IMG/VR virus record: IMGVR_UViG_3300031963_000607
Coordinates: 1-31,805 of that record
Source: a virus
Length of the DNA stretch: 31,805 bases
Direction: 5' to 3' (one strand)
The position numbers were made by a program, and so were the translations under genes. Under the pieces are notes generated by a model, which worked only from the letters and a program-made list of their open reading frames with translations, was not told where the DNA came from and searched no databases. This document shows positions 2,293-29,665 of the stretch, in pieces; positions within the stretch are counted from its first letter, which is position 1, and each line of letters opens with the position of its first letter.

Positions 2293-2858
2293 AGGTTCTG
2301 ATTGCATGTGAGTATTCTGGTGCGGTTCGCCGTGCGTTTCGCGAACGGGGGCATGACGCATGGTCGTGCGACTTGTTGCCGGCGGACGATGGCAGCGAGC
2401 ACCACTACCAAGACGATGTGCGTAATGTTCTCGGGCGAGGCAAGCCGTGGGCTGAACTGCCGTGGGACTTAATGATTGCGCACCCGCCTTGTACTCATCT
2501 TGCAGTGAGCGGAGCGCGTTGGTTTAAGGAGAAGCGATTTGAGCAGGGGGAGGCGCTAGAGTTTGTAAGATTCCTTTTGGATGCGCCGATACCGCGCATT
2601 GCGCTTGAGAATCCGGTGAGCATTATCAGCAGCCGCATCAGAAAGCCCGACCAGATCATTCAGCCGTGGCAGTTTGGGCATGGGGAGACCAAGGCAACGT
2701 GTCTTTGGTTGAAGAATCTTCCGCTGTTGAAGCCGACGAACATTGTCGAAGGGAGGGAAGCTCGCATTCACAAGATGCCGCCCTCTGCTGACCGATGGAA
2801 GAAGCGCAGCGAGACGTACGCTGGGATTGCATCTGCGATGGCGGAGCAGTGGGCATGA
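2289..2858 (+). CDS. short DNA cytosine methyltransferase-like protein (Dcm-like)
   Basis: The GTG at 2289 overlaps the previous stop (GTGA). The 189-residue product begins KVLIACEYSGAVRRAF, a SAM-binding motif I, has a motif-II-like CDLLPAD at 27-33, then AHPPCTHL at 64-71 carrying the catalytic-type Pro-Cys, and ENPV at 107-110 corresponding to motif VI. It is much shorter than typical C5-cytosine methyltransferases (over 300 aa) and has no obvious target-recognition domain. Members of this short phage family are usually annotated as SAM or DNA cytosine methyltransferases. A likely role is methylation of phage DNA against host restriction, but activity without a recognisable recognition domain is uncertain. 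Confidence 0.7.
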   Translation: MKVLIACEYSGAVRRAFRERGHDAWSCDLLPADDGSEHHYQDDVRNVLGRGKPWAELPWDLMIAHPPCTHLAVSGARWFKEKRFEQGEALEFVRFLLDAPIPRIALENPVSIISSRIRKPDQIIQPWQFGHGETKATCLWLKNLPLLKPTNIVEGREARIHKMPPSADRWKKRSETYAGIASAMAEQWA

Positions 2859-3040
2859 AGTACTACTGCTCTCACTGCGAGTCGGTGATGGAGCGGGACT
2901 CAAAAAAGGTTTGGATGAATTCATTTTGTAGTGACACTGGCAAGACGGTAAGAATCTATAGGAGAACTAGACATGCAAATCGACAGAGAAAGCCCGCCGG
3001 GGGCGTGGCAGCGGGAGTGGGACGCAAGGAGTCACACTGA
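2855..3040 (+). CDS. small zinc-ribbon protein, 61 aa
   Basis: It starts inside the preceding stop (ATGA). YYCSHCES gives C5 and C8, and SFCSDTGK gives C25, in a short strand-rich domain typical of tiny phage zinc ribbons; the fourth ligand is not obvious. After residue 35 the protein becomes basic (RRTRHANRQRK). The last 22 codons overlap the next gene by 68 nt, which is more than usual here, so this C-terminus may be weakly constrained. Nucleic-acid binding is a guess from composition. Confidence 0.6.
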   Translation: MKYYCSHCESVMERDSKKVWMNSFCSDTGKTVRIYRRTRHANRQRKPAGGVAAGVGRKESH

Positions 3041-3170
3041 AACGGAGTACCGCCAGGAGATACGGGAGATGCGCGAGCGGATATGGTACTACCTCAAGCA
3101 AATTGCGGAGCTGGAGCAGGAAGTGAAGGAGTTACGCGCCAAAGATGCAAGATGGGTGCAGGAACCATGA
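2973..3170 (+). CDS. small coiled-coil protein, 65 aa
   Basis: It is preceded by AGGAGA at an ideal distance. After an N-terminal MQIDRESPPGAWQREWDARS, residues about 22-58 make one long charged amphipathic helix (YRQEIREMRERIWYYLKQI followed by an E/L/K-rich stretch), so the protein probably forms a dimeric or higher coiled coil. No membrane segment is present. Its stop overlaps the next gene (ATGA). The function is unknown. Confidence 0.65.
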   Translation: MQIDRESPPGAWQREWDARSHTETEYRQEIREMRERIWYYLKQIAELEQEVKELRAKDARWVQEP

Positions 3171-3394
3171 TTAGCGAAGACATGAAAGTATGGAACGATT
3201 ATTGGCTTTCAACTCACGGTGCGCTTGAAGATTTTTGCAAGTTAGTTTCGGCTCGTGCTGCCGCAGCCGAGCGGGAGGCGTGTGCGAAGTTGTGTGAGGA
3301 TATTCCGGTGCCGCAAGACCCAACAGAATTGACGCATATTCCAACACTTGAGCGATGCGCCGCCGCCATCCGTGCTAGAGGAGAAAGCAAATGA
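3167..3394 (+). CDS. small helical phage protein, paralogous motif family, 75 aa
   Basis: The ATG overlaps the previous stop. The protein contains ALEDFCKLV, then AAAEREACAKLCEDI at about residues 30-45, and ends ERCAAAIRARGESK. The AAAERxACAK and xAIRARG pieces recur in the product of the gene at 3747, and the ALExxxKxxxLV piece also appears at the end of the product of the gene at 3391. Small phage proteins with this architecture are common as hypothetical proteins in accessory regions. The function is unknown; the helical, Cys-bearing AERxACAK segment may be an interaction module. Confidence 0.65.
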   Translation: MISEDMKVWNDYWLSTHGALEDFCKLVSARAAAAEREACAKLCEDIPVPQDPTELTHIPTLERCAAAIRARGESK

Positions 3395-3750
3395 CATCTG
3401 TGCACCAAAAGAAAGAACTTGGCCGGTGGCTACTGCCGGGCGCGGAGGGTGTCCAGCAGTTTGGAGTAACCCGAAAACCCCACGCATTCCACCGCGCCAT
3501 GATGCGGATATGTTTTGGCTGGCAGTGGATGGACAAGGAACTGACTTGTGACTACTGCAACCTTTACCCAAGGCTGCGTAGGAAAACACACTGCGCAGAG
3601 TGCGCCCGTTCGCTTGAAGGCGGCGAGTTATATAACGTGATCAAACTTGCCGAGAAAGCCGGGATCGTATTCGGAACGAGCAGCACGCATATCACAGTGC
3701 AGAAATTGGAAAAGTTTTTCGCTCTTGTACAAGGAGTCAACAAGCCATGA
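3391..3750 (+). CDS. small zinc-binding phage protein, 119 aa
   Basis: The ATG overlaps the preceding stop and follows GAGGAGA. The middle has FGWQWMDKE, then CDYCNLYPRLRRKTHCAEC with C53, C56, C68 and C71, a clean CxxC-x11-CxxC zinc ribbon. The C-terminal 40 residues (NVIKLAEKAGI ... LEKFFALV) resemble the N-terminal segment of the next gene's product (EVIELARKAGL ... LEEIDKFATLV), suggesting shared modules. No enzyme motif is seen. Confidence 0.65.
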   Translation: MTSVHQKKELGRWLLPGAEGVQQFGVTRKPHAFHRAMMRICFGWQWMDKELTCDYCNLYPRLRRKTHCAECARSLEGGELYNVIKLAEKAGIVFGTSSTHITVQKLEKFFALVQGVNKP

Positions 3751-17602: not shown

Positions 17603-20600
17603 CTACCTGCTTGCGTATCTTCTTAGCAAGACTTCTTCTGCGGGGGTATAAACCACGCCGCCTTTGGCTTTCTTAATTCGCTGTGCCTCCTGCTCGTGAA
17701 GGCGCTGGGCGTAAGCAGTAGAGGCTTCGGGACTAGAAAAAATTCCTAAGTGTCTTCCTGTTTTTAAGTAAGCATCAATGGCTTCTTTTTCAGAAACAAC
17801 CCTGCCATTTACGACAGTGGGAATAAGAACTTCTTTACCATTAATGTTAACGCCCATAGATCGGACGGTGCTGTAAGTACCATCTGGATTGCGTACAGCG
17901 GGGAGCTTGGATACATCAATGTTCCCAGGAGTAACTAGCCCGCCCTCTGCCTTCTTCTCTGGGAACTTGACGCCTGCCTCTTCCAGAATGCGAAGTTCAT
18001 CCTTGCTTAGCGCCTTCTTAATAACATCCTTCAAAAACGCATCCGGGGTTTCTTTCATCGCCTGTTGACGGGCGGCGGAATTAACCTCAGACAAAAGTTG
18101 TTTGAAAATATATCGCTTTTGAGAATTGGTTTTGTTTGCATACTCAGGAGAAGACACAAACTTTGAGACAACATCATTAATTAATGAAGCAGACTTTGAT
18201 GCAACAAGCCTGTCTGCATCAACATCCCCCGTGCGCTTGAATATCTCAAACTCCTTAATCTGAAGCCGATCCATTTCTTTCTCGGCTTCGTTCTTGGGAG
18301 AGATTTGCGTGACGCCCGTAACCTGACGAAGCCCAGGCGACTCGCGCACCCGAGGCTGCGGGTTGGTGTATGAGAAAGACTCTGGCAGTTCACGGCCAGC
18401 GACAGGAAGTTTGGAAGTTATTGGGCCAGTCAGAGGCTCTTCCGTAACGCGGCGAACCTTGGCTTCCTCTGGCATGAACTCCGCCATGACATCGCGAACT
18501 TGCTGAAACGGAATGAAGAATGTGCCGGCGTATTCGCCGCCTAACTTCACAAGGAAGTCTTCTGCTTTCTTGGCTCCAAACTCTGGGTCTTTTCTGAATT
18601 CGCCAAGCACCCCGTCAACCAGTTGGAGCCCAGTTTTATCAGAGCCGATGCCGGCGAGGGCTTCGGTAACATCAGTTCCTTTCAGGTCGTACAACGTACC
18701 ATCCAGATTGCGCTTTATAACATCGCCAACAAACAGATACGCAGAGAACGGCGCATACGGGCGCATGTCGATGGTCTTGCCATCTTCACCCTTCAGTTCG
18801 TACCACTTCTCGCCAGCGTATTCTGAGTCACGCAGCGCGTATGCCCCGTAAAGAAGGCCTGACCCAGCAAGTGCTTTAGATAGTAATCTGGTATCGCCTG
18901 ACTTGAGCGCAGCCCGTTCGTTCTTGCTGAGCAAATGCAACGGGCCAGCAGGGCTGTACTCCGTCATAAAGCGCATTGAGTTAATCAAGAAGCGCGGGAA
19001 CGGGATTGCAACTGTAGCAAGCGGAATGTTATCGATAGCGGTAACAACGGCTTGCTCAGCCTTTGTCTTCGGCTTGTTTGAGAATGTGAAGTCCATAGCG
19101 TCTTCAACGCCGCGCTGAACGATATCCTCCGGAATATCGCCCATGCGGTTGGACTTCATTACTTCGTGGAAGTCGAGCCCGCGTGCTTTCATGCCGCGCT
19201 CAACAGAGTCCGCAAAGACGGCGCTACGCATCACGCTGTCTTGGAATCGGTTAAATACGTTAAGTGCATAAACCGCTTTCTCAGCGCCACCTAGAATGTC
19301 CGGAGCTTTTCCGCCAAGCGTTACGCCAGCGTTGTACTGACGGAACATCTCATCGTATTCTTTTGGGCGAACCTCAAGGATACGTTTGGTTAAGTCCATG
19401 GCTTGCTTTGGATTGAGCAAGTTCATTACTTGACCAAACGCATCGCCCGCCGTCGTCAACGGCATCTCTGGGTTGACCTTGCCAGTAGCCTTTTGAATAC
19501 CGTAGTCAATCAACTTTGTACCGGTATCAAGAATGGATCTGCCAACTCCGACCGTAGCATTACGTACCGCCGTTGAAAGTTGCGACACCATAAGTCCACG
19601 ACGAATATCTTCTATTCGTTTAAAAATTCCTCGATCATCAATGATTCCGCCCGCAGCCTGAGTGTTAATGCCTTCAACGGCGTCCTCTGCTTCGCGAGTA
19701 AACTTCCTAAAGTCACTTAGAATTTGCAGCGTTCTACCAGCCTGCGAAACTTCTTGAACGTAAGACTTTGCAAACTCATCTGGGGTCAGCTCATTACGTT
19801 TGAGAATGTCAACGTACACATCTGGACGTAAGCGCCCAGACTGAAGCAAGTTAGCAACCTGCAAGAACGGCGGGATGCTGGGGTCAATCTTGACCTCTCC
19901 AGTCTCCAGCAACTCTTTTGCAGCATTGGTAATTTTTTGCTGCGCAGCAATCGTAGGCGCTACGCGCTCGCCAGTCTTCATGCCGGGGACGACGTTCTCC
20001 GGAAGATCACGCGCTGCGATACGCGCAGCCTCAAGTTCTGGGTCTGGAGAAAGATTAATCTCAGACTTCACTACTTGCGTGTTAACTTCATCCGGCGTCT
20101 TAACAATCGGCAGTTTCGACGCCTTTGGCTTCTTGCCCTTCTTGCCCTTGACTTCCGGCACCACAGGAGGCGGCGGCTCTGGCGCAACAACTGGCGGAGG
20201 CTCTGGAGTTACGGCAGGCGGAGCTTCAGGGACAGCCTTCGCTGCCGCACGGCGGCGCATCAAGCCTCTAGCCGCTACAGCACCAGGGAGCAGGACTTCA
20301 GGCCCGAGCACATCCTCGGCAACGGTACTGGCAACCTTGGAGCCGGTCACTTTCTCAACGCCCTTGCCAATCATTTGCGACGGAATCGACAGGACCTCCG
20401 CAGCAGGGCGGATCGTCTCCATACCCAACTTGCCCATCTCACTGCGCGGCTCGTACGTCATCTTGCGCTGAGTTTCGCGAATCGCTGCTGCGGCTTCCGG
20501 GTCTGACTCGCCTTTTGCAAGGCCGTATGCGCCTCGAGCGTAAGACGGAAGCAGGCTCAAAACGCCAGTCAGCATCGACGCTGCCGGCTCAACAAGCAAC

Positions 20601-20896
20601 GAAGTCACGCTCAAGGGAGTCGGTGATCGTCGCGTAGCAGGCTGCTCTACAGCCGGGGCCGGGCGCGTTGCCGGGGCTGGCGCTGGCGTAACAGAAGGCC
20701 GTGAAGCCGGAGCAGTAGAAGCCTGACCCTCACGCATAAAGTCCACGCGAGCAGGCTCCTGCTTTCTGGGCGCAGGCTTGCTGAGCCCGTACTTGGACTT
20801 CAGAACGTATTCTTCTGCATCTTCTTGGGTTGCCCCTTCAGGTGCAGGAACATTCCATTTCTTTCCGTCCGGACCGATGACCGTGAAGTTAGGCAT
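17603..20896 (-). CDS. large internal virion/ejection-type protein, 1097 aa
   Basis: The size, the Ala/Pro-rich N-terminus (residues about 40-100 and 220-255) and the position as the last of three big virion genes suit an internal (ejection) protein. The middle (residues about 320-830) is helical with NAAKELLETGEVKIDP, a region with MVSQLSTAVRNATVGVGRSI and a weakly hydrophobic patch (LATVAIPFPRFLINSMRFM). The C-terminal conserved phage domain at about 992-1072 (VRNPDGTYSTVRSMGVNING, EVLIPTVVNGRVVS, GRHLGIF) is common in virion proteins of many podoviruses. No lytic transglycosylase motif was seen. The function is inferred from context. Confidence 0.75.
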   Translation of the reverse strand: MPNFTVIGPDGKKWNVPAPEGATQEDAEEYVLKSKYGLSKPAPRKQEPARVDFMREGQASTAPASRPSVTPAPAPATRPAPAVEQPATRRSPTPLSVTSLLVEPAASMLTGVLSLLPSYARGAYGLAKGESDPEAAAAIRETQRKMTYEPRSEMGKLGMETIRPAAEVLSIPSQMIGKGVEKVTGSKVASTVAEDVLGPEVLLPGAVAARGLMRRRAAAKAVPEAPPAVTPEPPPVVAPEPPPPVVPEVKGKKGKKPKASKLPIVKTPDEVNTQVVKSEINLSPDPELEAARIAARDLPENVVPGMKTGERVAPTIAAQQKITNAAKELLETGEVKIDPSIPPFLQVANLLQSGRLRPDVYVDILKRNELTPDEFAKSYVQEVSQAGRTLQILSDFRKFTREAEDAVEGINTQAAGGIIDDRGIFKRIEDIRRGLMVSQLSTAVRNATVGVGRSILDTGTKLIDYGIQKATGKVNPEMPLTTAGDAFGQVMNLLNPKQAMDLTKRILEVRPKEYDEMFRQYNAGVTLGGKAPDILGGAEKAVYALNVFNRFQDSVMRSAVFADSVERGMKARGLDFHEVMKSNRMGDIPEDIVQRGVEDAMDFTFSNKPKTKAEQAVVTAIDNIPLATVAIPFPRFLINSMRFMTEYSPAGPLHLLSKNERAALKSGDTRLLSKALAGSGLLYGAYALRDSEYAGEKWYELKGEDGKTIDMRPYAPFSAYLFVGDVIKRNLDGTLYDLKGTDVTEALAGIGSDKTGLQLVDGVLGEFRKDPEFGAKKAEDFLVKLGGEYAGTFFIPFQQVRDVMAEFMPEEAKVRRVTEEPLTGPITSKLPVAGRELPESFSYTNPQPRVRESPGLRQVTGVTQISPKNEAEKEMDRLQIKEFEIFKRTGDVDADRLVASKSASLINDVVSKFVSSPEYANKTNSQKRYIFKQLLSEVNSAARQQAMKETPDAFLKDVIKKALSKDELRILEEAGVKFPEKKAEGGLVTPGNIDVSKLPAVRNPDGTYSTVRSMGVNINGKEVLIPTVVNGRVVSEKEAIDAYLKTGRHLGIFSSPEASTAYAQRLHEQEAQRIKKAKGGVVYTPAEEVLLRRYASR

Positions 20897-20907: not shown

Positions 20908-21816
20908 TTACTGATTTTCTTGCTGCCGTAAGAGGTAGTCAAGAATGCTAGAACTTTTCTTTTGCTGCTCGTCATACATACGCAACTCTTCAATTTCATC
21001 TGGCGTTGCAGTGCCATTTTTTATTTTGTTTCTAATTTGCGCCATACGGGTAATTAGAGCAGGTCGTGGAGGCGCTGATGGGCGCTTTAGATGCTTCACT
21101 TCGCGCAGGTATTTTGCGTAAGCCTGATCTTCTGGAAGATTTGGGAACATTGCTTTTGCTGAAATTTTGTCAGCGCGAACTTGAGATGGGTCTGCTTGGC
21201 CTTTTTCTGCTGCAAGCCTACGAATCTCAAGAAGGTCTTGACGATACTTTGCCTGTTCCTCCGCAGCCATTCTTTCCTGCTCACTCCTTGACTTGCGCGT
21301 GAGAATGTCAAGCGCAAGATCTTGCGCCTTCATCGCACGCTCTTCGTTCTCCGCCTGAGTACTGCGGATCAAGTCAGCAGACTTTCTAATGGAGCCAGCG
21401 CCAAGAATGTCAGCAATGCCCAACTGCTTTGGCGTCAAGAGCTTTTTTTGCGCTTCTTCAAGTTGCTTGATGATTTCTTCTTCGTAGAGGTTACGTCGAG
21501 AGACTTGCTGCTTTGCTTGGGCAGGCTCTCCTTCGTCCTCTTCAACTGCTGAGGCAACTTCTTCAGGTTGATCAACAAGTTCGTCTTCATCTTCCTCATC
21601 AGGTTGAATAACTCTTCCTTGATCTTGAGTAAGTTCTTCTTCATCTTCAACCTCACTGATATCGCCCCAGCCAGGTTCTTCAGACCTTGCTTTCGGTTTT
21701 GCAACGTCAAACTTCTTCTTGCGGTTTGCAAGAATGCTGTCATTACCCTCGATGATGTACCGCTCGTACATTTCACGAAGGTTCTTAGCAGGGCTTCGGT
21801 ACTTGATTTCAGCCAT
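20908..21816 (-). CDS. acidic coiled-coil virion-associated protein, 302 aa
   Basis: The first 20 residues are basic (MAEIKYRSPAKNLREMYERY). Residues about 45-100 are extremely acidic (EVEDEEELTQDQGRVIQPDE and repeats of E/D), and 105-230 are charged helix with coiled-coil character. It lies between two virion genes, with 11 nt and 3 nt gaps. Such acidic, elongated proteins could act as a scaffold, a chaperone for basic partners, or an internal virion protein; the capsid genes needed to test the scaffold idea are outside the window. No enzyme motif was found. Confidence 0.6.
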   Translation of the reverse strand: MAEIKYRSPAKNLREMYERYIIEGNDSILANRKKKFDVAKPKARSEEPGWGDISEVEDEEELTQDQGRVIQPDEEDEDELVDQPEEVASAVEEDEGEPAQAKQQVSRRNLYEEEIIKQLEEAQKKLLTPKQLGIADILGAGSIRKSADLIRSTQAENEERAMKAQDLALDILTRKSRSEQERMAAEEQAKYRQDLLEIRRLAAEKGQADPSQVRADKISAKAMFPNLPEDQAYAKYLREVKHLKRPSAPPRPALITRMAQIRNKIKNGTATPDEIEELRMYDEQQKKSSSILDYLLRQQENQ

Positions 21817-21819
21817 GGC

Positions 21820-23226
21820 TTAACCACCCTTTTTAAGCATTTCTTTCAAGAAGTCTTTAACTGCACCGCCAGTAGGCGAATTAAGAATTTCGTTAATAAC
21901 CTTATAAGCATTAGCAAGTTTTGAAACGTCCGTTTCAGAAGTTGCACCCGGCGGAAGTTCCTGACGAGTCTCCGTCTTGACAGACGGGACGTTAACTCCC
22001 GAAAGAATGTCAGACAAGAACTTGAGCATGTCCTTCGGATAATCACGCTGCTCAAGGAAGTCCTTGTATGCAAGATCAAGATTGGCCTGATCCATTGCGC
22101 GCTCTTTCTCGCCAACTTCCGTAAGCGTCTTAGCGCCCCTAGTCTCAAGGTCCTGAGTCTCGCGACCCATCGTGAGGTATTTGTCAGACAGTTCGCGCAG
22201 GGCTGCGGCGTCTTCAGTCGAAAGCCTGCCCTTAGACTCCGCAATGCGGGTAAGGTTTTGCGCATCCTCTGCCGTAAGCGTGCCAGATGCCTTGCCAATC
22301 TCAAGCATGCGGTTGGCATCTTCGCTCGTCAGTGCGCCAGCCTTCGCTCCGATATCCGCAAGGCTGCGACCGCTTTCAATCATTCGGTTGTAGTCTTCCG
22401 CGCTCAACTTGCCAGACAGTCCGGCAAGTTCAACGAGACGCGCAAGATCCTTACCGTAGATATCCGCAGCCTGACCGTACCCGGCTTGCAGCGCCTTAGC
22501 CTGCTCGCCAAGAATTGAGCTTTGCACATCGCGCAATGCACGAGCGCCAAACTCGCCCATGCGAGTGCTGCCGGGACCAACGCCAAATTGACCGGCGCCA
22601 ATGAACTCCTGACCAATCTCAGGTAGGTACTTTTCTTTAAGCTGCCGAATACCAATGTCGCCAATCTGCTCAACGACGCCCTTGATGTACGGGTTCATGT
22701 ACTTATCAACAGCGCCTGGGAATGTTTCCGAGGCGGCGTCAATATATCTCTGCGCAGCCCCTAATGAGGAACCTTCCCCGCCGGCTTTGATAGCCCTAGA
22801 AGCGTCGGAAAAATAATCCTTTGCGGCGCCATAAGAAGAAACATCACCCGCCCTTTCAAAAAAGGGCCTGGCTGCGCCAGCAGCAGACATACCAGATGCT
22901 TTAGCAAAATCACCAGCAGCTGCCGCAGACGCGCCTCCAGTCCTCTTCGCAGCCTCGTCAAGGGTAGAGCCAGCCTTTGTTGTGAACGGCTCAAACGATC
23001 TTGCCGCCTTCCTCGCAGCCTCAGCACCTTCCCTTTCGGTCTTCGTAAATTCTGCAATCCGAGGGCGCTTGTAGGTTTCATAAGGCAGGTCTGAGAACGC
23101 CTTCGCCTTAGAAAGCATGTTGGTGGTATATTCGGTATACCACTCCGGAAGCTGAATTTTTGTGGTGCTCGTCAAATCAATGGGAGTGGGAGTTTTCCCC
23201 TCAAACAGAAAGTCTGTAACACTCAT
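21820..23226 (-). CDS. internal virion protein with short tandem repeats, 468 aa
   Basis: The protein is Ala/Gly-rich. A family signature is the N-terminal FEPFTTKAGSTLDEAAKRTG-like region followed by YGAAKDYFSDASRAIKAGG and LGAAQRYIDAASETF, near-repeats around residues 100-170. Residues 271-349 contain four copies of an about 18-residue helical repeat (AGALTSEDANRMLEIGKA, SGTLTAEDAQNLTRIAES and so on). The C-terminus is LKEMLKKGG. Such proteins occur next to the tail genes in aquatic podoviruses and are usually annotated as structural or internal virion proteins. Its ATG overlaps the next stop by one base (TAATG), indicating coupling. Confidence 0.65.
   Translation of the reverse strand: MSVTDFLFEGKTPTPIDLTSTTKIQLPEWYTEYTTNMLSKAKAFSDLPYETYKRPRIAEFTKTEREGAEAARKAARSFEPFTTKAGSTLDEAAKRTGGASAAAAGDFAKASGMSAAGAARPFFERAGDVSSYGAAKDYFSDASRAIKAGGEGSSLGAAQRYIDAASETFPGAVDKYMNPYIKGVVEQIGDIGIRQLKEKYLPEIGQEFIGAGQFGVGPGSTRMGEFGARALRDVQSSILGEQAKALQAGYGQAADIYGKDLARLVELAGLSGKLSAEDYNRMIESGRSLADIGAKAGALTSEDANRMLEIGKASGTLTAEDAQNLTRIAESKGRLSTEDAAALRELSDKYLTMGRETQDLETRGAKTLTEVGEKERAMDQANLDLAYKDFLEQRDYPKDMLKFLSDILSGVNVPSVKTETRQELPPGATSETDVSKLANAYKVINEILNSPTGGAVKDFLKEMLKKGG
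22180..22416 (-). repeat. four tandem 18-residue coding repeats in the 468-aa protein
   Basis: Residues 271-349 are made of one 25-residue and three 18-residue units sharing the pattern G-x-L-(S/T)-x-E-D-x-x-x-(L/M). They look like stacked short helices. At the DNA level the units have drifted, so they are old duplications rather than recent slippage. Confidence 0.7.
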
Positions 23227-25955
23227 TAGGCTAACCCTCCGCCCATGTACTTATCGGGCGACTTTGCGTCCGGACTAATCTGGCCACGCGATAGGGCACG
23301 ACCCTTGTGCTTTCGGATATTAGCACGGAATTTATCCATCCGCCGTGCCCCCTCCCTAGTCGAGCCATCCCCCAAAAGAGCCAGAGTTTCCGCGTCAATT
23401 ACGTACTCCCCGTCGCTCAGTAGGGCAGGGATTTTGTCGTCCCGACCGGACCCTGGACCGTCCACATAGCGGGACTTTTTGCTGCCGCCCTTGGCATAGC
23501 CTGCCAACCCGCCCTTGGCGAGTCCGTCCTTCTTTTCCTCAGGGGGTTTCTCTTCCTCGAGAACGTACTCAAAGTACTGCTCCTCAGGGCGGAACCCGTA
23601 GGTCTTCGCTTCGGTGGTCGGGGTAATGCTCTTGCGAACATACTTGTACTTCGGAAGCGCCCCTCCAAACTCGGTGTCCTTGGTCGCTGTAGTCAACGGA
23701 CCCTTGGGCTTTGACCCGCCGCCACTCGTAGCGCCAAACGCAGCCAGAAGCTTGAGCAACTCCTCAAGCCCTCCGAGCTTATCCAGCATACCCTTGAGAG
23801 GGTCTTCCTTTTCTTCCGGCGGAGGCTCGTTTACCTTGGTAGGTTGCGTGGGCATATCAACCGGAGTCGTTGTTGGAACAACAACAGGAGGAATAATAAG
23901 ATCTGGCTTTACCGGTGGCGAAGTCGTTACTTCAATTTCAGGTAGCCCTTCTTTCACGGGCGCTTCAACAAAAGGCTCTTCTTCAGGCTCAGTCTCAGGA
24001 GCAGGCTCGGCAGTTTCCAAAGGACTCTTTGGCAGATCAACCGGAGTCGTTGTCGGAACAACAACAGGAGGGACAACGAGCGGAGAGCTTGTAGTGGCTG
24101 GAGCCGTTACTTCAATTTGAGGAAGCCCTTCTTTTACAGGTGCCTCAACAAAAGGCTCTTCTTCGGGCTGCGGTTCAGCCTCCGGTTCCGGCTGAGGCTC
24201 TGGCTCAGGTTGCGGCGCTGCCTTTTCCACAATGGTTTCTGCAACCGCAGGTGCGGTCGTAGCAAGCGGAGCAGCAGGAGTTGTTGCAACGCTAGGCTTC
24301 GTCGAAACTACAACCTCATCAAGGGGAGAAGGCTCTGGAACAGTAGCTTGCGGAGTCGTTGCCGCAGAACTTCCGCCACCACCGCCTAAAGCGCCGGCAG
24401 CACCCGCTGCACCAGCGCCAACAGCAGCGGCAGTACCAGCGCCCGCGCCGGTTCCAGCGGTTACTGTAAATGTGGGGAGAGCTCCAGCAGCGGCACCAGC
24501 ACCAGCACCCGCGCCAGCACCAGCGCCACCAAGAGCGCCCCCTGCTGCGGTTGTACCCGCTGCTGTGCCAGCACCAGCCCCCGCACCCGCACCCGCACCC
24601 GCTCCAGTTCCAGCACCGCCACCAAGCGCGCCGGCAAGTTGCGCACCGCCAAATATGGCAGCAGCAATCGCGGCAGCGTTGAAGATGTCCTTAAATATGC
24701 CAGGATCTTTCTTGACCTCTTGAGCCTGAAGAACCCGATCAAGCATCGGGTACCCAGTGTCTGACGTTATCGCTTTTCCAGATTCGTCAAAACCAGACAC
24801 CCACATTAAAGCGCCGCGTTCCTCGGCTCCCTTCGGGTCAAACTTCCAAGCCTCATCAAATTTATATCTATCTCCATAAGCGCCCTTCATAAAGTCTGGC
24901 GGCATGGAGTTAATAAACTGACGAGCCTCTTCCTTGGTGAAAGCCCCCCTAAGGTTTTTAAGTTCGTTCGTCTGCGTCAAAAGAGTTTGCATTCCGTTTT
25001 CGGAGGCATATTTATAGGCCTCTTCAAACCGATTGCTCTTCAACAGATCAGAAAGAACCTGACGCTGAGGCAGGCTGTTAAGATAAACCGACTCTTGGCT
25101 AGAAAGAGAATCAAGCGTCTGCTTCAAATTTTCTTTTAGACCATTCTCAATTTCCGGCGTAAGTTGATTAGCCGTTCTTAAAGAATTGATCTTTTGCTCA
25201 TAGTCGCTAACAGCGGATTGCTTTTCTTTCTTGTACCGATCTGCGGCAGCAATGTCCGCACCGCCAGTGCCGGGCTGGGTCAGGTTAGGAACAAGCGAGG
25301 GCTGCGCTCCAAAAAGTTTCATCCTGTCAATCCAACTCATTTCGGCTGGTGCGACAGGCTGCGTTACCGGCTCCTTCTGAGCAGAAGGCTCTTCAATTAC
25401 AACTGCGTCACTCAGAGCGCCAGATGGAACTCGAGAGTCTTCTGATGAAACAGCATCGCTCAAAGGAGATGAAACAGATGCTGATTGTTTCCTTGCGCTT
25501 TCTTCCCCAGCAACGCGAGCGGCTTCCCGCTCCGCTGCAACACGAGCGGCTTCGCGCTCTGCTATGACACGGGCAGCTTCTGCTCTAGCAGCCTCGGCTC
25601 GCGCAGCTTCTTCACTAGCAGCCTGGGCTCTCGCTGCCTCATCGCGGGCAGCCTGCACTCTCGCAGCCTCCGCTCTAGCAGATTCGGCGGCTTGCTCAGC
25701 CTCCGCCTGTCTAATCATATCTTCACGAGCGCGCTCCTCAGCTATCCGCTCGGCAAGAACACGACGGCTTTCTTCCTCTGCTCTGGCAGCGGCAATCTCT
25801 TCCTGCCGGCGCTGCATCTCAAAAAGGTCTGCTTGGCGTTGACGAGAAGCCTCTTGCTCTTCAAGCATCTGAGCAATAAAACCACGCTCAATTTCCTCTG
25901 ACCCGCCTTCAGGGTCCGTAGTAGGAACTTCACCGTAAGTGTAAAAACCAGCCAT
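23226..25955 (-). CDS. very large low-complexity virion protein, 909 aa
   Basis: Residues about 30-165 form a long Glu/Arg/Ala coiled coil with near-heptad units (EREAARVAAEREAARVAGEE and similar). Residues about 437-532 are a Gly/Ala-rich, silk-like segment. Two 60-residue Pro/Glu-rich repeats follow (EEEPFVEAPVKEGLP... twice). The last 80 residues (830-909) hold a conserved phage domain: DGPGSGRDDKIPALLSDGEY, then VIDAETLALLGDGSTREGAR. It is in the virion gene block and is likely structural or an internal/ejection protein. No catalytic motif is seen. Opposite-strand long ORFs are shadows of its simple composition. Confidence 0.68.
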   Translation of the reverse strand: MAGFYTYGEVPTTDPEGGSEEIERGFIAQMLEEQEASRQRQADLFEMQRRQEEIAAARAEEESRRVLAERIAEERAREDMIRQAEAEQAAESARAEAARVQAARDEAARAQAASEEAARAEAARAEAARVIAEREAARVAAEREAARVAGEESARKQSASVSSPLSDAVSSEDSRVPSGALSDAVVIEEPSAQKEPVTQPVAPAEMSWIDRMKLFGAQPSLVPNLTQPGTGGADIAAADRYKKEKQSAVSDYEQKINSLRTANQLTPEIENGLKENLKQTLDSLSSQESVYLNSLPQRQVLSDLLKSNRFEEAYKYASENGMQTLLTQTNELKNLRGAFTKEEARQFINSMPPDFMKGAYGDRYKFDEAWKFDPKGAEERGALMWVSGFDESGKAITSDTGYPMLDRVLQAQEVKKDPGIFKDIFNAAAIAAAIFGGAQLAGALGGGAGTGAGAGAGAGAGAGTAAGTTAAGGALGGAGAGAGAGAGAAAGALPTFTVTAGTGAGAGTAAAVGAGAAGAAGALGGGGGSSAATTPQATVPEPSPLDEVVVSTKPSVATTPAAPLATTAPAVAETIVEKAAPQPEPEPQPEPEAEPQPEEEPFVEAPVKEGLPQIEVTAPATTSSPLVVPPVVVPTTTPVDLPKSPLETAEPAPETEPEEEPFVEAPVKEGLPEIEVTTSPPVKPDLIIPPVVVPTTTPVDMPTQPTKVNEPPPEEKEDPLKGMLDKLGGLEELLKLLAAFGATSGGGSKPKGPLTTATKDTEFGGALPKYKYVRKSITPTTEAKTYGFRPEEQYFEYVLEEEKPPEEKKDGLAKGGLAGYAKGGSKKSRYVDGPGSGRDDKIPALLSDGEYVIDAETLALLGDGSTREGARRMDKFRANIRKHKGRALSRGQISPDAKSPDKYMGGGLA
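23851..24210 (-). repeat. 180-bp tandem repeat within the 909-aa gene
   Basis: Two copies, 23851-24030 and 24031-24210 (the second incomplete at its edge), repeat with a spacing of exactly 180 bp: ATCAACCGGAGTCGTT begins at 23856 and 24036, and AAAGGCTCTTCTTC at 23971 and 24151. This equals 60 codons. Substitutions are mostly silent or conservative, so the duplication is moderately old and the reading frame has been kept. Confidence 0.85.
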
Positions 25956-25962
25956 GGTTCAC

Positions 25963-26202
25963 CTAATTTAAGACTTGATAAAAACGATATGCCCACTCTT
26001 GCCAGTCGTCAAACTGGTAAGGAGACGGGGGGTTTAACTGAGAAATGCCGTTTATGCCTATCAAGCCAGCAGCCCAATTTTGCCACTCGGATTCCGAGTA
26101 CAGCTGCGGGATCACCGCATATTCATCCAAGTCCAAGCACAGGGTATCCGCCCAGTACTGCAAGTCCACCCCACGAGGATCTACGATTCGGTGCGTTCTC
26201 AT
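25963..26202 (-). CDS. small conserved phage protein, 79 aa
   Basis: MRTHRIVDPRGVDLQYWADT is followed by a hydrophobic acidic stretch (LCLDLDEYAVIPQ), then Trp-rich WQNWAAGLIGINGISQLN and DDWQEWAYRFYQVLN. The seven or more aromatics in 79 residues suggest a compact surface-binding protein. Its ATG overlaps the stop of the stabilisation protein gene (4 nt), and it precedes the 909-aa gene. Related small ORFs occur at this position in podovirus-like genomes. The function is unknown; a small tail or virion component is plausible. Confidence 0.65.
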   Translation of the reverse strand: MRTHRIVDPRGVDLQYWADTLCLDLDEYAVIPQLYSESEWQNWAAGLIGINGISQLNPPSPYQFDDWQEWAYRFYQVLN

Positions 26203-27815
26203 GGATTCTCTCCAAGCACCGTACCCGTAGCCGCTTCGATGTGCGCAATAACCTGGCCCATTTGATAGTTTCCGCCCAGCGTGTTGCTCTCGAAACGGAA
26301 TCGCATCTCTCGACGGATCTCTCGGAAGTACACCAACTGTTGCTGACGGTCTGTCAGTGTTGCGTAAATCGTTTGCGGGTCGCTAGTAACTTCTGCTGAC
26401 CTAGCGTTAGCACGACCCGTTACTTCTACGGTCATGTCTCCAGACATAACAAAGTCAGGCTCAATGTACTCTACGCGAATCGCCATGTTCTGAGGCTGCT
26501 CAGAAGCAATTAAAGATATGTCTGCCGTCTCGAAGAAAGACTGAACCGGGCGAATCTGAGTTCCGTAAATTTCATCTGTGCCATATTCATGCTGCCACAC
26601 AACGTAACCCTTTGGGTCGTTGATGATTCGCGGCTGGTTGTCTTCCGTAACGCGAAGATCTTTAGCCTCAGTTTCGCGATAAAGAGGAACTTGAGGGTCA
26701 ACATCGACAACGCCCACCACCAACGGTGAGCTGAATACCTGCGCATACATGCCAGCAGAGCGCCCGCTATTTGGGAGCACAGTGTCGTACCACGTTTGTT
26801 CGCGCACGTTGTAGATAACTGCATGGGTACATTCAGTGGCATTCCCACGCGGGTAACACCACCAGATCTCGCCCCATCGCGGAACTTTAAACACGAATAC
26901 TTTCTGGCGCTGAGAGTAGTTCAAGTTGTCAAAGAACCAGTTCAAGTTCAAAGCGTTTGGTACTTCTCGTACAACACCGTTGAACATCAAGAACCGGTCA
27001 ACACCGCACCAGTAGTAGATACCGTCGTACTCGATCACGCTTTGCGAAGAAAGAATGCTCGACTGCGAAGTAATAGTGTCAAACTGAAATACCGCCTGAC
27101 CGCCTACATACGTAGCGCGAATTACCGAGTCCAATGACCAGAACAAACCCGAAGGTGCGTTACCGGCGCCGGATCGAAGCGGAAGACCTTTTACAATTTT
27201 CTGGCTCGTAATGCGAGCAGCGCCTGCATCGCCGCTAGTCCAGTCATCGGTATACCCGGCTCGGCTCCACTGGATAAACCCGTCCGATCCGTAAGCGAAT
27301 ACATACGGAGCCAAGGCAACGATGCCGCCTGAAATAGTCAGTGAGGGTACAGGGGTTAACTGCGAGGTCCCGTTGTCGTACCCAACATACAACTGACCAG
27401 CAGCGTCCGAAGAGATGTCCTCTACGTTTGGAGCAACGTGAGCCAGAATCTCGTTCTGGTTATTTGTGGTGTTGTACGCAACATCGAACTGCCACATGTT
27501 TGCTTCATTAGAAATGAAGCTGGAATCTGTTCGATTAGTGATAATGCTCGAAAGACCATTCTGGTCTAGGCGAAATCGGAAAATACCATTTGCCGTTCCG
27601 ATGTGAACATACGTATAGGCATTGTGATTGTGGATATGCATTCCACGGGCAATGCCCTCTAGGCTGTCTTGCAGCGAACGATACCCGCCTATCTTTCTGG
27701 GCAGTCCACGTTGAAAACGAACCCACTGTCCGTCTACGTAATAGTTGCCCTCAAACTTGGTACCGTCTCTCTTGATACCGGGTTCAGAGCGAACAATGAC
27801 CGGCTGAAGCGGCAT
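26199..27815 (-). CDS. tail/packaged-DNA stabilisation-like structural protein, 538 aa
   Basis: The N-terminus has MPLQPVIVRSEPGIKRDGT, then GQWVRFQRGLPRKIGGYRSL, a pattern of phage structural proteins that gate or stabilise DNA. The protein is strand-rich throughout (repeated short segments such as GIFRFRLDQNGLSSI, VVGVVDVDPQVPLYRE, RIINDPKGYVVWQHEY), consistent with a propeller-like fold. Gene order adaptor, fibre, this, then ejection proteins agrees with a P22-type tail machine with gp10-like function. I am confident it is a virion protein, less so of the gp10 equivalence. Confidence 0.65.
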   Translation of the reverse strand: MPLQPVIVRSEPGIKRDGTKFEGNYYVDGQWVRFQRGLPRKIGGYRSLQDSLEGIARGMHIHNHNAYTYVHIGTANGIFRFRLDQNGLSSIITNRTDSSFISNEANMWQFDVAYNTTNNQNEILAHVAPNVEDISSDAAGQLYVGYDNGTSQLTPVPSLTISGGIVALAPYVFAYGSDGFIQWSRAGYTDDWTSGDAGAARITSQKIVKGLPLRSGAGNAPSGLFWSLDSVIRATYVGGQAVFQFDTITSQSSILSSQSVIEYDGIYYWCGVDRFLMFNGVVREVPNALNLNWFFDNLNYSQRQKVFVFKVPRWGEIWWCYPRGNATECTHAVIYNVREQTWYDTVLPNSGRSAGMYAQVFSSPLVVGVVDVDPQVPLYRETEAKDLRVTEDNQPRIINDPKGYVVWQHEYGTDEIYGTQIRPVQSFFETADISLIASEQPQNMAIRVEYIEPDFVMSGDMTVEVTGRANARSAEVTSDPQTIYATLTDRQQQLVYFREIRREMRFRFESNTLGGNYQMGQVIAHIEAATGTVLGENP

Positions 27816-29017: not shown

Positions 29018-29665
29018 TTATGCCTCCCGGCGATTCGTAGACCGGTCAACAATCTTCTGGAGATCTTCGCCATTCAGCGCAGCCAGCGACCGGTCATAGT
29101 AGGACTGCCACAGCTGCACCCGGTCGTCGTCTTTTACAAACGGAGTCGCTTCTACCAGCGACCCATACAACAGCAAGTTTGGTGCAAACTCCGTGAGCCA
29201 GTTGGTCTGATTTGTATCATCCAACAGCGGCGGCAGTTCGTAGTACAAAATCTCCATTGGATAGTTCGCAGCCGGCGTCGGCACAAATATCCAGTGCTTA
29301 TAGTCGTAGTCAGCGTAAAACTTAGGCTGGCCAGTCGTTGTCTCATTGGGCCAGTAACTACGGACGTATTCGTAAGATCGCGGGAATACGGGGGTGTGGA
29401 CGTTGTTGTTCGTCCCGGTACCATAGTTAATGCTGATGGTGTCACGCCACCGATCCGGCTTTGCGTAAACAGCTACCCCAGATTGCATGGTGGTATTGAC
29501 CACCGTTTGGAACCCCTGAATCTTGAGTTCACGGGCAATCCGGCGCTCGGCCAGGGTAATTAGCCGGGGGATCTGCTCGTAGACAATAGGGTCCGTCGCC
29601 CCGCCACGCTCTAGGTAGTTGCGGATGTCGGACTGCAAGCTGGTAAATGTCATCGACGCAGGCAT
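29018..29665 (-). CDS. P22 gp4-like head-tail adaptor / tail accessory protein, 215 aa
   Basis: The pattern MTFTSLQSDIRNYLERGGAT, then IPRLITLAERRIARELKIQG, then YELPPLLDDTNQTNWLTEFAPNLLLYGSL and WQSYYDRSLAALNGED is typical of the phage adaptor protein family that includes P22 gp4, which binds the portal ring and connects the tail. The 215 residues compare with 166 in P22 gp4, so this protein carries extra strands in the middle (VAVYAKPDRWRDTISIN and DYDYKHWIFVPTP). It heads the tail block, with AAGGAG upstream. The portal is not in the window. Confidence 0.78.
   Translation of the reverse strand: MPASMTFTSLQSDIRNYLERGGATDPIVYEQIPRLITLAERRIARELKIQGFQTVVNTTMQSGVAVYAKPDRWRDTISINYGTGTNNNVHTPVFPRSYEYVRSYWPNETTTGQPKFYADYDYKHWIFVPTPAANYPMEILYYELPPLLDDTNQTNWLTEFAPNLLLYGSLVEATPFVKDDDRVQLWQSYYDRSLAALNGEDLQKIVDRSTNRREA

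Follow-up and report, generated by a model that had tools for sequence, protein, structure and literature searches.

The 31,805-nt virus record IMGVR_UViG_3300031963_000607 of IMG/VR, analysed here in its entirety and called the window, carries on its minus strand a single uninterrupted open reading frame (ORF) for the 909-residue protein described in the initial annotation; in it we found four short motifs resembling the TonB boxes of bacterial TonB-dependent receptors (Table 1). At the level of sequence and prediction we regard four points as established: the equivalence of these motifs to TonB boxes, their location in a Pro-rich segment predicted to be disordered, their multiplicity, and their persistence when the body of the protein is replaced. 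We consider it somewhat probable that the protein is ejected from the virion and that its tether offers the boxes to periplasmic TonB during DNA entry; TonB binding and the role in entry are proposed from the sequence and from the known mechanism of TonB boxes. The initial annotation had read the protein as a flexible, silk-like tether. What it observed was partly confirmed and its interpretation partly supported, but the main feature, the TonB-box-like motifs, had been overlooked.

In relatives of the 909-residue protein the Pro-rich segment repeats a peptide such as PLEEVVVTGTKP, RLDEVVVTGSKYQP or PTEEVVVTGTRPPP, which we took to be TonB-box-like and then tested. For this we derived a motif from receptors with zero phage input, using bacterial genomes searched with the Plug family (PF07715), which gave 57 loci, of which four and a further four were dropped and 49 used. 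A 9-column motif was learned by unsupervised expectation-maximization on the stretch from the signal-peptide site to Plug. Runs on a wider region had converged on the signal-peptide site and on the strand of Plug rather than on TonB boxes; within this stretch the 12 best random starts listed had nearly the same likelihood. For 33 receptors the resulting motif, L-[PDE]-[TEP]-[VI]-[VT]-V-T-A-[ST], begins 13-21 residues ahead of the Plug match, and for the others farther away; at a cut of 14 bits it marks 29 of these 49 training receptors.

The phage proteins scored with this motif came from a sample, the best 80 of at least 531 IMG/VR loci related through the C-terminal domain of the 909-residue protein. 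The 107 ORFs with this domain were reduced to 93 by setting aside 14 distant ones (E≥1e-20), to 77 by removing 16 incomplete ones, and to 47 by removing near-duplicates; the window ORF is represented among the 47 by that of locus L003 (98% identical; L numbers denote our loci throughout). In these 47 complete proteins (36,990 residues) the receptor motif had 55 matches at 14 bits, distributed over 23 proteins, against an expectation of 0.67 from whole-protein shuffles and 1.2–1.5 from shuffles of 40-residue blocks, and a single match in the reversed sequences. Not one of 2000 column-permuted motifs reached 55 matches (mean 1.7, maximum 46). At 10 bits there were 110 matches in 33 of the 47 proteins, with one to nine boxes per protein, compared with 10.8 in block shuffles and 7 in reversed sequences. 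The 338 other plus-strand ORFs of at least 150 residues in the same loci (133,710 residues) gave six matches: three in the phrog_3287-type protein in TVSGG contexts, which we took for chance, one in an incomplete 515-residue frame of L065, and two in large downstream ORFs of the same block, at L066 8919-11126 (EAPEIVVTAPRIE) and L089 8420-11455 (SEEIVVTATEGY). Moreover, K or R directly follows the motif window, at a position left out of the scoring, in 37 of the 55 phage matches and 12 of the 25 receptor matches, compared with a local background of 4.1% for the phage sites. The phage motif thus matches receptor TonB boxes beyond chance, and the sequence evidence for boxes is strong.

The converse search gave a concordant result. 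We built a 10-column motif corresponding to residues 545-554 from 20 distinct phage peptides only and used it to rank 8,192 open frames (at least 100 codons, both strands) from 1.6 Mb of a single bacterial genome, G018, which belongs to the same class as the Pararhodobacter genome G003 and was picked for having the most Plug matches (47) among 26 genomes searched; 19 of the ranked frames carry Plug. The eight highest-ranking frames were Plug receptors without exception, each matched 14-25 residues ahead of the Plug domain, and 10 of the top 20 frames carry Plug (area under the curve 0.89). The reversed motif placed no receptor in its top 20 and none of 150 permuted motifs placed more than two among its first eight. 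The ranking is not an effect of frame length, as none of the eight longest frames is a receptor.

These results bear on the alternative that the motif is a generic short beta-strand with which a tether docks on another virion protein, its likeness to TonB boxes being convergent. TonB boxes are themselves short strands that bind by beta-augmentation, the peptide DEIVVTA also occurs in other phage-protein contexts, and relatives without boxes evidently exist, all of which suit a docking strand. Against this, a phage-only motif retrieved TonB-dependent receptors as the eight best of 8,192 frames and at the correct distance from Plug, the trailing basic residue matches receptors as well, and boxes are found in different proteins of different phages; we therefore think a docking strand unlikely.

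Of the four motifs in the window protein, motif 1 is the least certain, given its Gly/Ala context. Motifs 3 and 4 resemble receptor boxes from a Bradyrhizobium genome (e.g., LPSVTVTAP and IPAVTVTAP) and occupy equivalent positions of two 60-residue module copies, one box per copy, so that the module duplication is a duplication of a TonB-box module. This duplication had been reported as exact over 180 bp; its period is indeed exactly 180 nt (60 residues) and the module is Pro/Glu-rich, but the copies have diverged, the best 180-bp window being 72% identical and the best segment 79% over 139 bp, with a longest exact run of 20 bp; two sub-blocks reach 84% (77 nt) and 91% (46 nt). When 28 proteins are aligned, the mean column identity is 23%, yet V550 is conserved in 96% of them and L545 and E547 in 86% each, which makes the motif, as judged from the alignment, a conserved island of an otherwise variable region. 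Box spacing in relatives is regular and lineage-specific (36-37, 42-45 or 50-56 residues in several lineages), and for L031 Tandem Repeats Finder (TRF) confirmed that the boxes coincide with a 111-nt tandem array.

Persistence of the boxes is best illustrated by L011, whose protein has ends nearly identical to those of the window protein (98% over 48 residues in a masked search, about 175 by eye, and 100% over the last 170 residues) and a body between them that is mostly unrelated or weakly related (28% over 208 residues). It still has box-like motifs, LEEIKVTGKK twice at 10.7 bits and LEQIEVSTF. The pairs L011/L017 and L012/L018 have near-identical ends and a replaced centre (L012 being cut on its N-terminal side), a pattern that, from these comparisons, is one of modular exchange inside one gene.

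An AlphaFold2 model of the 909-residue protein, from 27 sequences, had a mean predicted local distance difference test score (pLDDT) of 54.3. Residues 20-158 form one continuous helix, with pLDDT mostly above 90, within a stretch (residues 14-159) that is at least 75% E/A/R/Q; longer versions of it occur in some relatives (e.g., L009). The Glu/Arg/Ala coiled coil described in the initial annotation therefore holds as a long helix and fails as a heptad repeat, since its hydrophobic residues recur with a period of 5 positions rather than 7 (autocorrelation +0.29 at lag 5, as against -0.21 at lag 7); the DNA periods of this region are 15, 27 and 30 nt. A predicted helical domain at about residues 233-411, absent from the initial annotation like the motifs themselves, is kept in the closest relatives and replaced in L011. 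It is followed by an Ala-rich hydrophobic helix (residues 420-445) that, judged from a low-confidence part of the model, is a possible membrane segment. The Gly/Ala segment was found as described, at residues 424-532 (109 residues, at least 75% Gly+Ala), while its proposed silk-like or elastic nature comes down to composition: Pfam gave no family at E≤0.1 for the 909-residue protein, neither silk or elastin nor Plug or barrel. Residues 446-718 are without structure in the model (pLDDT about 23-41), in line with disorder and with the flexible or unfolded segment originally proposed, and residues 531-700 contain 24% Pro and 15% Glu. A helix at 719-743 leads to a small C-terminal domain. The TonB-box-like motifs are thus predicted to sit in a flexible, exposed segment.

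The same data speak to the original proposal of an inert flexible, silk-like or coiled-coil tether that is merely threaded through the tail. The predicted disorder of 446-718, the helix at 20-158 and the low-complexity composition all agree with it; nevertheless, it gives no reason to expect that a motif of host type should be conserved within the disorder, leaves the presence of TonB-box-like motifs in a variable Pro-rich segment unexplained, and neither heptads nor an exact duplication were found. We consider it very unlikely as a full account, its disordered stretch aside. Other searches with the 909-residue protein added little: Pfam, PHROGs and NCBIfam recovered the C-terminal domain only, plus chance-level matches, a sequence search of the PDB returned an antibody at E=0.38, which we rejected as chance, and Foldseek with the model found one match in BFVD, to an uncultured phage (E=1.1e-5).

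As to where the protein acts, its gene follows, in minus-strand order, those of an SU10-type adaptor, a fibre-like protein and a phrog_3287 protein (for which an AlphaFold2 model from 5 sequences had a mean pLDDT of 29.9), and is followed by ORFs of 468, 302 and 1097 residues. The gene order is identical in Caulobacter phage GB2A, where the adaptor is 60% identical, the phrog_3287 protein 51%, the C-terminal domain of the 909-residue protein 61% over 77 residues, and the next protein 31%. In related loci, homologues at the phrog_3287 position are matched by Sm_phiM5_25, a structural protein detected by mass spectrometry (MS) in phiM5, a Sinorhizobium phage of the LUZ24-like podovirus lineage (PMC10386132). 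The fourth-protein position in related loci is held by homologues of an MS-detected phiM5 internal virion protein, annotated as detected in the particle proteome, which matches the last block protein in L089 and L234; this link to phiM5 runs via the related loci and not via the window's own 1097-residue protein. Because the 909-residue ORF comes after the genes for adaptor and virion structural protein and forms part of a block encoding internal virion proteins, it is likely an ejection-type internal virion protein, so that synteny backs the podovirus ejection-type role in the initial annotation. The neighbouring 1097-residue protein had no TonB-box match at 9 bits; a 24-nt tandem repeat at window positions 20168-20223 (minus strand) encodes a Pro-rich stretch in it (PPPVVAPEPPPPVVPE).

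The C-terminal 80-95 or so residues match a phage domain, in agreement with the initial annotation, and this domain raises another alternative, that of a tape-measure protein of a long-tailed phage. The GB2A homologue gp065c (OR260089.1 34059-35801; L013:6498-8240) was deposited as a tail length tape measure protein, and a tape-measure model of PHROGs (1853 positions) matches the C-terminal domain with E=1.2e-4 over 35 residues. That match is limited to this domain, with no whole-length family match, and the likeness of gp065c to the window family is likewise confined to it, while its synteny fits an internal virion protein. In addition, an SU10-type adaptor is encoded nearby, as is a phrog_3287 protein that has a relative among the structural proteins of phiM5, protein length ranges from 580 to 1301 residues among syntenic relatives, and the 14 distant relatives, presumed tape measures, had no box at 14 bits (maximum 12.0). 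We regard a tape measure as highly improbable. The motif of the C-terminal domain (SDGEYVI...; window 23226-23519, loci L100-L113) was also seen on contigs of Streptomyces, Nocardia, Bradyrhizobium, Martelella and others, in large proteins that are presumably tape measures, and by these matches the domain is a module common to the window family and such proteins.

Table 1. Features of the 909-residue ORF and of its neighbours (window coordinates)
Feature	Position	Strand	Basis
909-aa ORF, probable ejected (internal) virion protein with TonB-box-like motifs	23226..25955	-	uninterrupted ORF; synteny
Single long E/R/A-rich helix, residues 20-158	25482..25898	-	AlphaFold2, pLDDT mostly >90; autocorrelation; relatives
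Predicted helical domain, residues 233-411	24723..25259	-	AlphaFold2; blastp
Ala-rich hydrophobic helix, residues 420-445, low confidence	24621..24698	-	AlphaFold2, pLDDT about 29-48
Gly/Ala-rich tract, residues 424-532	24360..24686	-	composition
Motif 1, LPTFTVTAG, residues 493-501, in Gly/Ala tract	24453..24479	-	19.0 bits, receptor-derived position weight matrix
Motif 2, LDEVVVSTK, residues 545-553	24297..24323	-	15.4 bits
Motif 3, LPQIEVTAP, residues 611-619, in module copy 1	24099..24125	-	14.4 bits
Motif 4, LPEIEVTTS, residues 671-679, in module copy 2	23919..23945	-	16.7 bits
Pro/Glu module copy 1, 60 aa	23998..24177	-	DNA self-comparison
Pro/Glu module copy 2, 60 aa, DNA 72% identical to copy 1	23818..23997	-	DNA self-comparison
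C-terminal domain, also in Caulobacter phages of the RW group and in 531 or more IMG/VR loci	23226..23519	-	PHROG, sequence searches
468-aa neighbour, second protein of block	21820..23226	-	31% identity with gp064c of Caulobacter phage GB2A
302-aa neighbour, third protein of block	20908..21816	-	kept in close relatives; without blastp match in GB2A
1097-aa neighbour, fourth protein of block	17603..20896	-	gene order only; without blastp match to GB2A fourth protein
phrog_3287 virion structural protein	26199..27815	-	E=5.5e-35
SU10-type tail adaptor	29018..29665	-	PF24175, E=3.4e-31

Boxes extend beyond the window family. An exact scan of IMG/VR returned at least 120 loci each for EEVVVTG and DEIVVTA, and at least 120 and 112 for the respective reversed peptides; the EEVVVTG set overlaps the window family and includes near-duplicates, and the DEIVVTA set is mostly new. 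Among the matches listed, when each context was counted once and frames shorter than 300 codons were set aside, the context was Pro-rich for 17 of 51 EEVVVTG and 8 of 32 DEIVVTA matches, against none of 35 and none of 32 for the reversed peptides, and K or R came among the next three residues in 31/51 and 17/32, against 10/35 and 4/32. DEIVVTA was found in proteins whose C-terminus is unlike that of the window family (L414, with repeated box modules, L437, L449 and L460), in an incomplete protein adjoining a phrog_3287 homologue (L419), and in proteins with the window-type C-terminal domain or a related end (L479 and L471). The L414 protein (2499-3728, plus strand) has 410 residues and a repeated box module (EDDEIVVTAPKTTEPPFPS), with two exact-pattern matches 129 nt apart. 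A single box near the N-terminus (e.g., KIDEIEEVVVTGKQEEQ) occurs in other ejection-type or unassigned phage proteins, namely L066:8919-11126, L070:8957-11164, L234:2547-4079 (minus strand) and L185:4750-6909 (minus strand); the L234 protein is 34.5% identical to the MS-detected phiM5 internal virion protein.

Not every match was of this kind. ORFs of about 530 residues on viral contigs, one of them 89 kb long, in L184 (5969-7558, minus strand) and L227 (6196-7782, plus strand) have a TonB box directly after a signal-peptide-like segment and match Plug PF07715 (E=8.7e-9 and 4.9e-7, respectively); by their domain content these are shortened TonB-dependent receptors, phage-borne or from contamination, and not phage-tether boxes. 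The motif contexts in L171, L187, L192 and L231 are the same as or similar to those in L184 and L227. In L417, L420 and L498, DEIVVTA stands in IPVYxGxxxIDEIVVTAxQR.....SGG near the C-terminus of frames of 525-949 codons, a different context that we excluded as evidence; this ending is probably a different conserved element.

Several observations weigh against a TonB-directed tether. Foldseek gave no PDB match to the model at E≤0.001. The protein is placed in the virion by gene order, and neither the 302- nor the 1097-residue neighbour had a blastp match in GB2A at E≤1e-3. Boxes were lacking in 24 of the 47 relatives at 14 bits and in 14 of the 47 at 10 bits, those of L011 score below 14 bits, the window boxes depart further from the canonical form than the best one in the family (LEEVVVTGTKP), and in L009 no tandem DNA array was listed by TRF where the box modules lie. 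Short beta-strand motifs may also coincide by chance, as DEIVVTA in L417, L420 and L498 illustrates. When 28 virion-region proteins from five named phage records were scanned, matches of at least 14 bits occurred in three: GB2A gp065c, with VDEIVVTPS at 15.8 bits, and two 'stabilization proteins' at 14.1 and 15.4 bits, which we took for chance, so that chance matches do occur at this cut. No boxes were found in the scanned phiM5 internal virion proteins, nor in the scanned DSL-LC05 proteins. Finally, tblastn of three family members against a 'phages' collection of 50,697 records found only the Caulobacter RW/GB2A isolate group to be close, in which one box exceeds 14 bits and the others are weaker; isolate searches with other box proteins gave the Caulobacter group, phiM5, DSL-LC05, or no match.

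The phage proteins share features with several known systems. Filamentous phage g3p is an entry protein that engages a trans-envelope protein linked to the proton motive force, and does so through a folded domain that binds TolA, in an unrelated phage, as opposed to the short TonB boxes here. The TolA C-terminal domain has the TonB fold (PMC8928145). TonB-dependent receptors share the box sequence including the trailing basic residue, and differ in their Plug and barrel domains, which the phage protein lacks. Closer in logic are TonB-dependent bacteriocins such as klebicin C and colicins 5 and 10, which bring their own TonB box, in a disordered segment, from outside to the periplasm and use TonB with ExbB-ExbD; binding of the box by beta-augmentation is described for FhuA and klebicin C (PMC11658791). 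Unlike bacteriocins, the phage proteins have up to nine boxes and Pro-rich modules and probably arrive via the tail and not a receptor barrel, and we identified no killing domain in the phage protein. Irreversible adsorption of T1 requires TonB and energy, while for the FhuA phages T1, phi80 and T5 the TonB box is that of the host receptor, with which T5 pb5 and Llp do not interact (PMC11658791, PMC9586334).

With the podovirus ejection proteins (P22 gp7/16/20, T7 gp14/15/16) the window protein shares genomic position, mosaicism, helical parts and inferred ejection; a review of these proteins, searched by text, makes no mention of TonB (PMC8954989). The Caulobacter phages RW, RLK, KcrB and GB2A (proposed Riverwalkvirus; PMC11053796) share gene order, the C-terminal domain and the box VDEIVVTPS, whereas the GB2A protein is shorter (580 residues), has no long E/R/A helix that we could see and is annotated as a tape measure. 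A TonB-dependent receptor-like gene among the structural genes of a pelagiphage (PMC10504331) is a different observation that may be related. In the literature covered on TonB and phages, which samples broad topics and leaves most subscription papers outside, we found no report of TonB boxes in phage virion proteins.

If the favored reading is correct, the phage would be podovirus-like, with a TonB-bearing Gram-negative host, and the 909-residue protein would be packed in the head and leave it together with the DNA. The virion and conduit would be served by the long helix, the helical domain and the C-terminal domain, the hydrophobic Ala/Gly stretch would lie in or near a membrane, and the 270-residue disordered Pro/Glu tether would span the periplasm, where beta-strand augmentation would join its boxes to the C-terminal domain of the host's TonB. 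Capture by TonB could then anchor the incoming complex to the ExbBD-driven motor, with the proton motive force helping to pull, position or open the DNA conduit, in the manner of bacteriocins that have their own TonB boxes; more speculatively, tandem boxes might make capture more probable or serve one after another as handholds. Alternatively, the boxes might bind TonB in order to occupy it, blocking receptors after entry and so excluding superinfecting phages or bacteriocins, or starving the receptors. Up to nine boxes on a single chain would suit sequestration, and a TonB-box pentapeptide inhibits TonB-dependent processes in vivo, according to the title of a paper cited in PMC7142613. Nevertheless, the gene sits in a structural and ejection block, and a virion protein is generally delivered in few copies, a weak basis for a lasting effect, so that sequestration seems to us quite improbable.

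A capture of TonB by the ejected tether would bear on the power source of early phage DNA entry and on how ejection proteins cross the periplasm. It would explain TonB requirements that involve no TonB-dependent receptor, join phage entry to bacteriocin import, and suggest what many phage proteins now unannotated, 'tape measure-like' or 'hypothetical', are for; the idea would be testable with a cultivated pair, Caulobacter and RW/GB2A. More broadly, and as a possibility that we put forward with considerable doubt, widespread and mostly uncultivated phages may enter by a TonB-powered route, in which arrays of boxes serve as handholds by which TonB-ExbBD pulls the ejection complex and DNA, and in which box type and copy number evolve with the host TonB.

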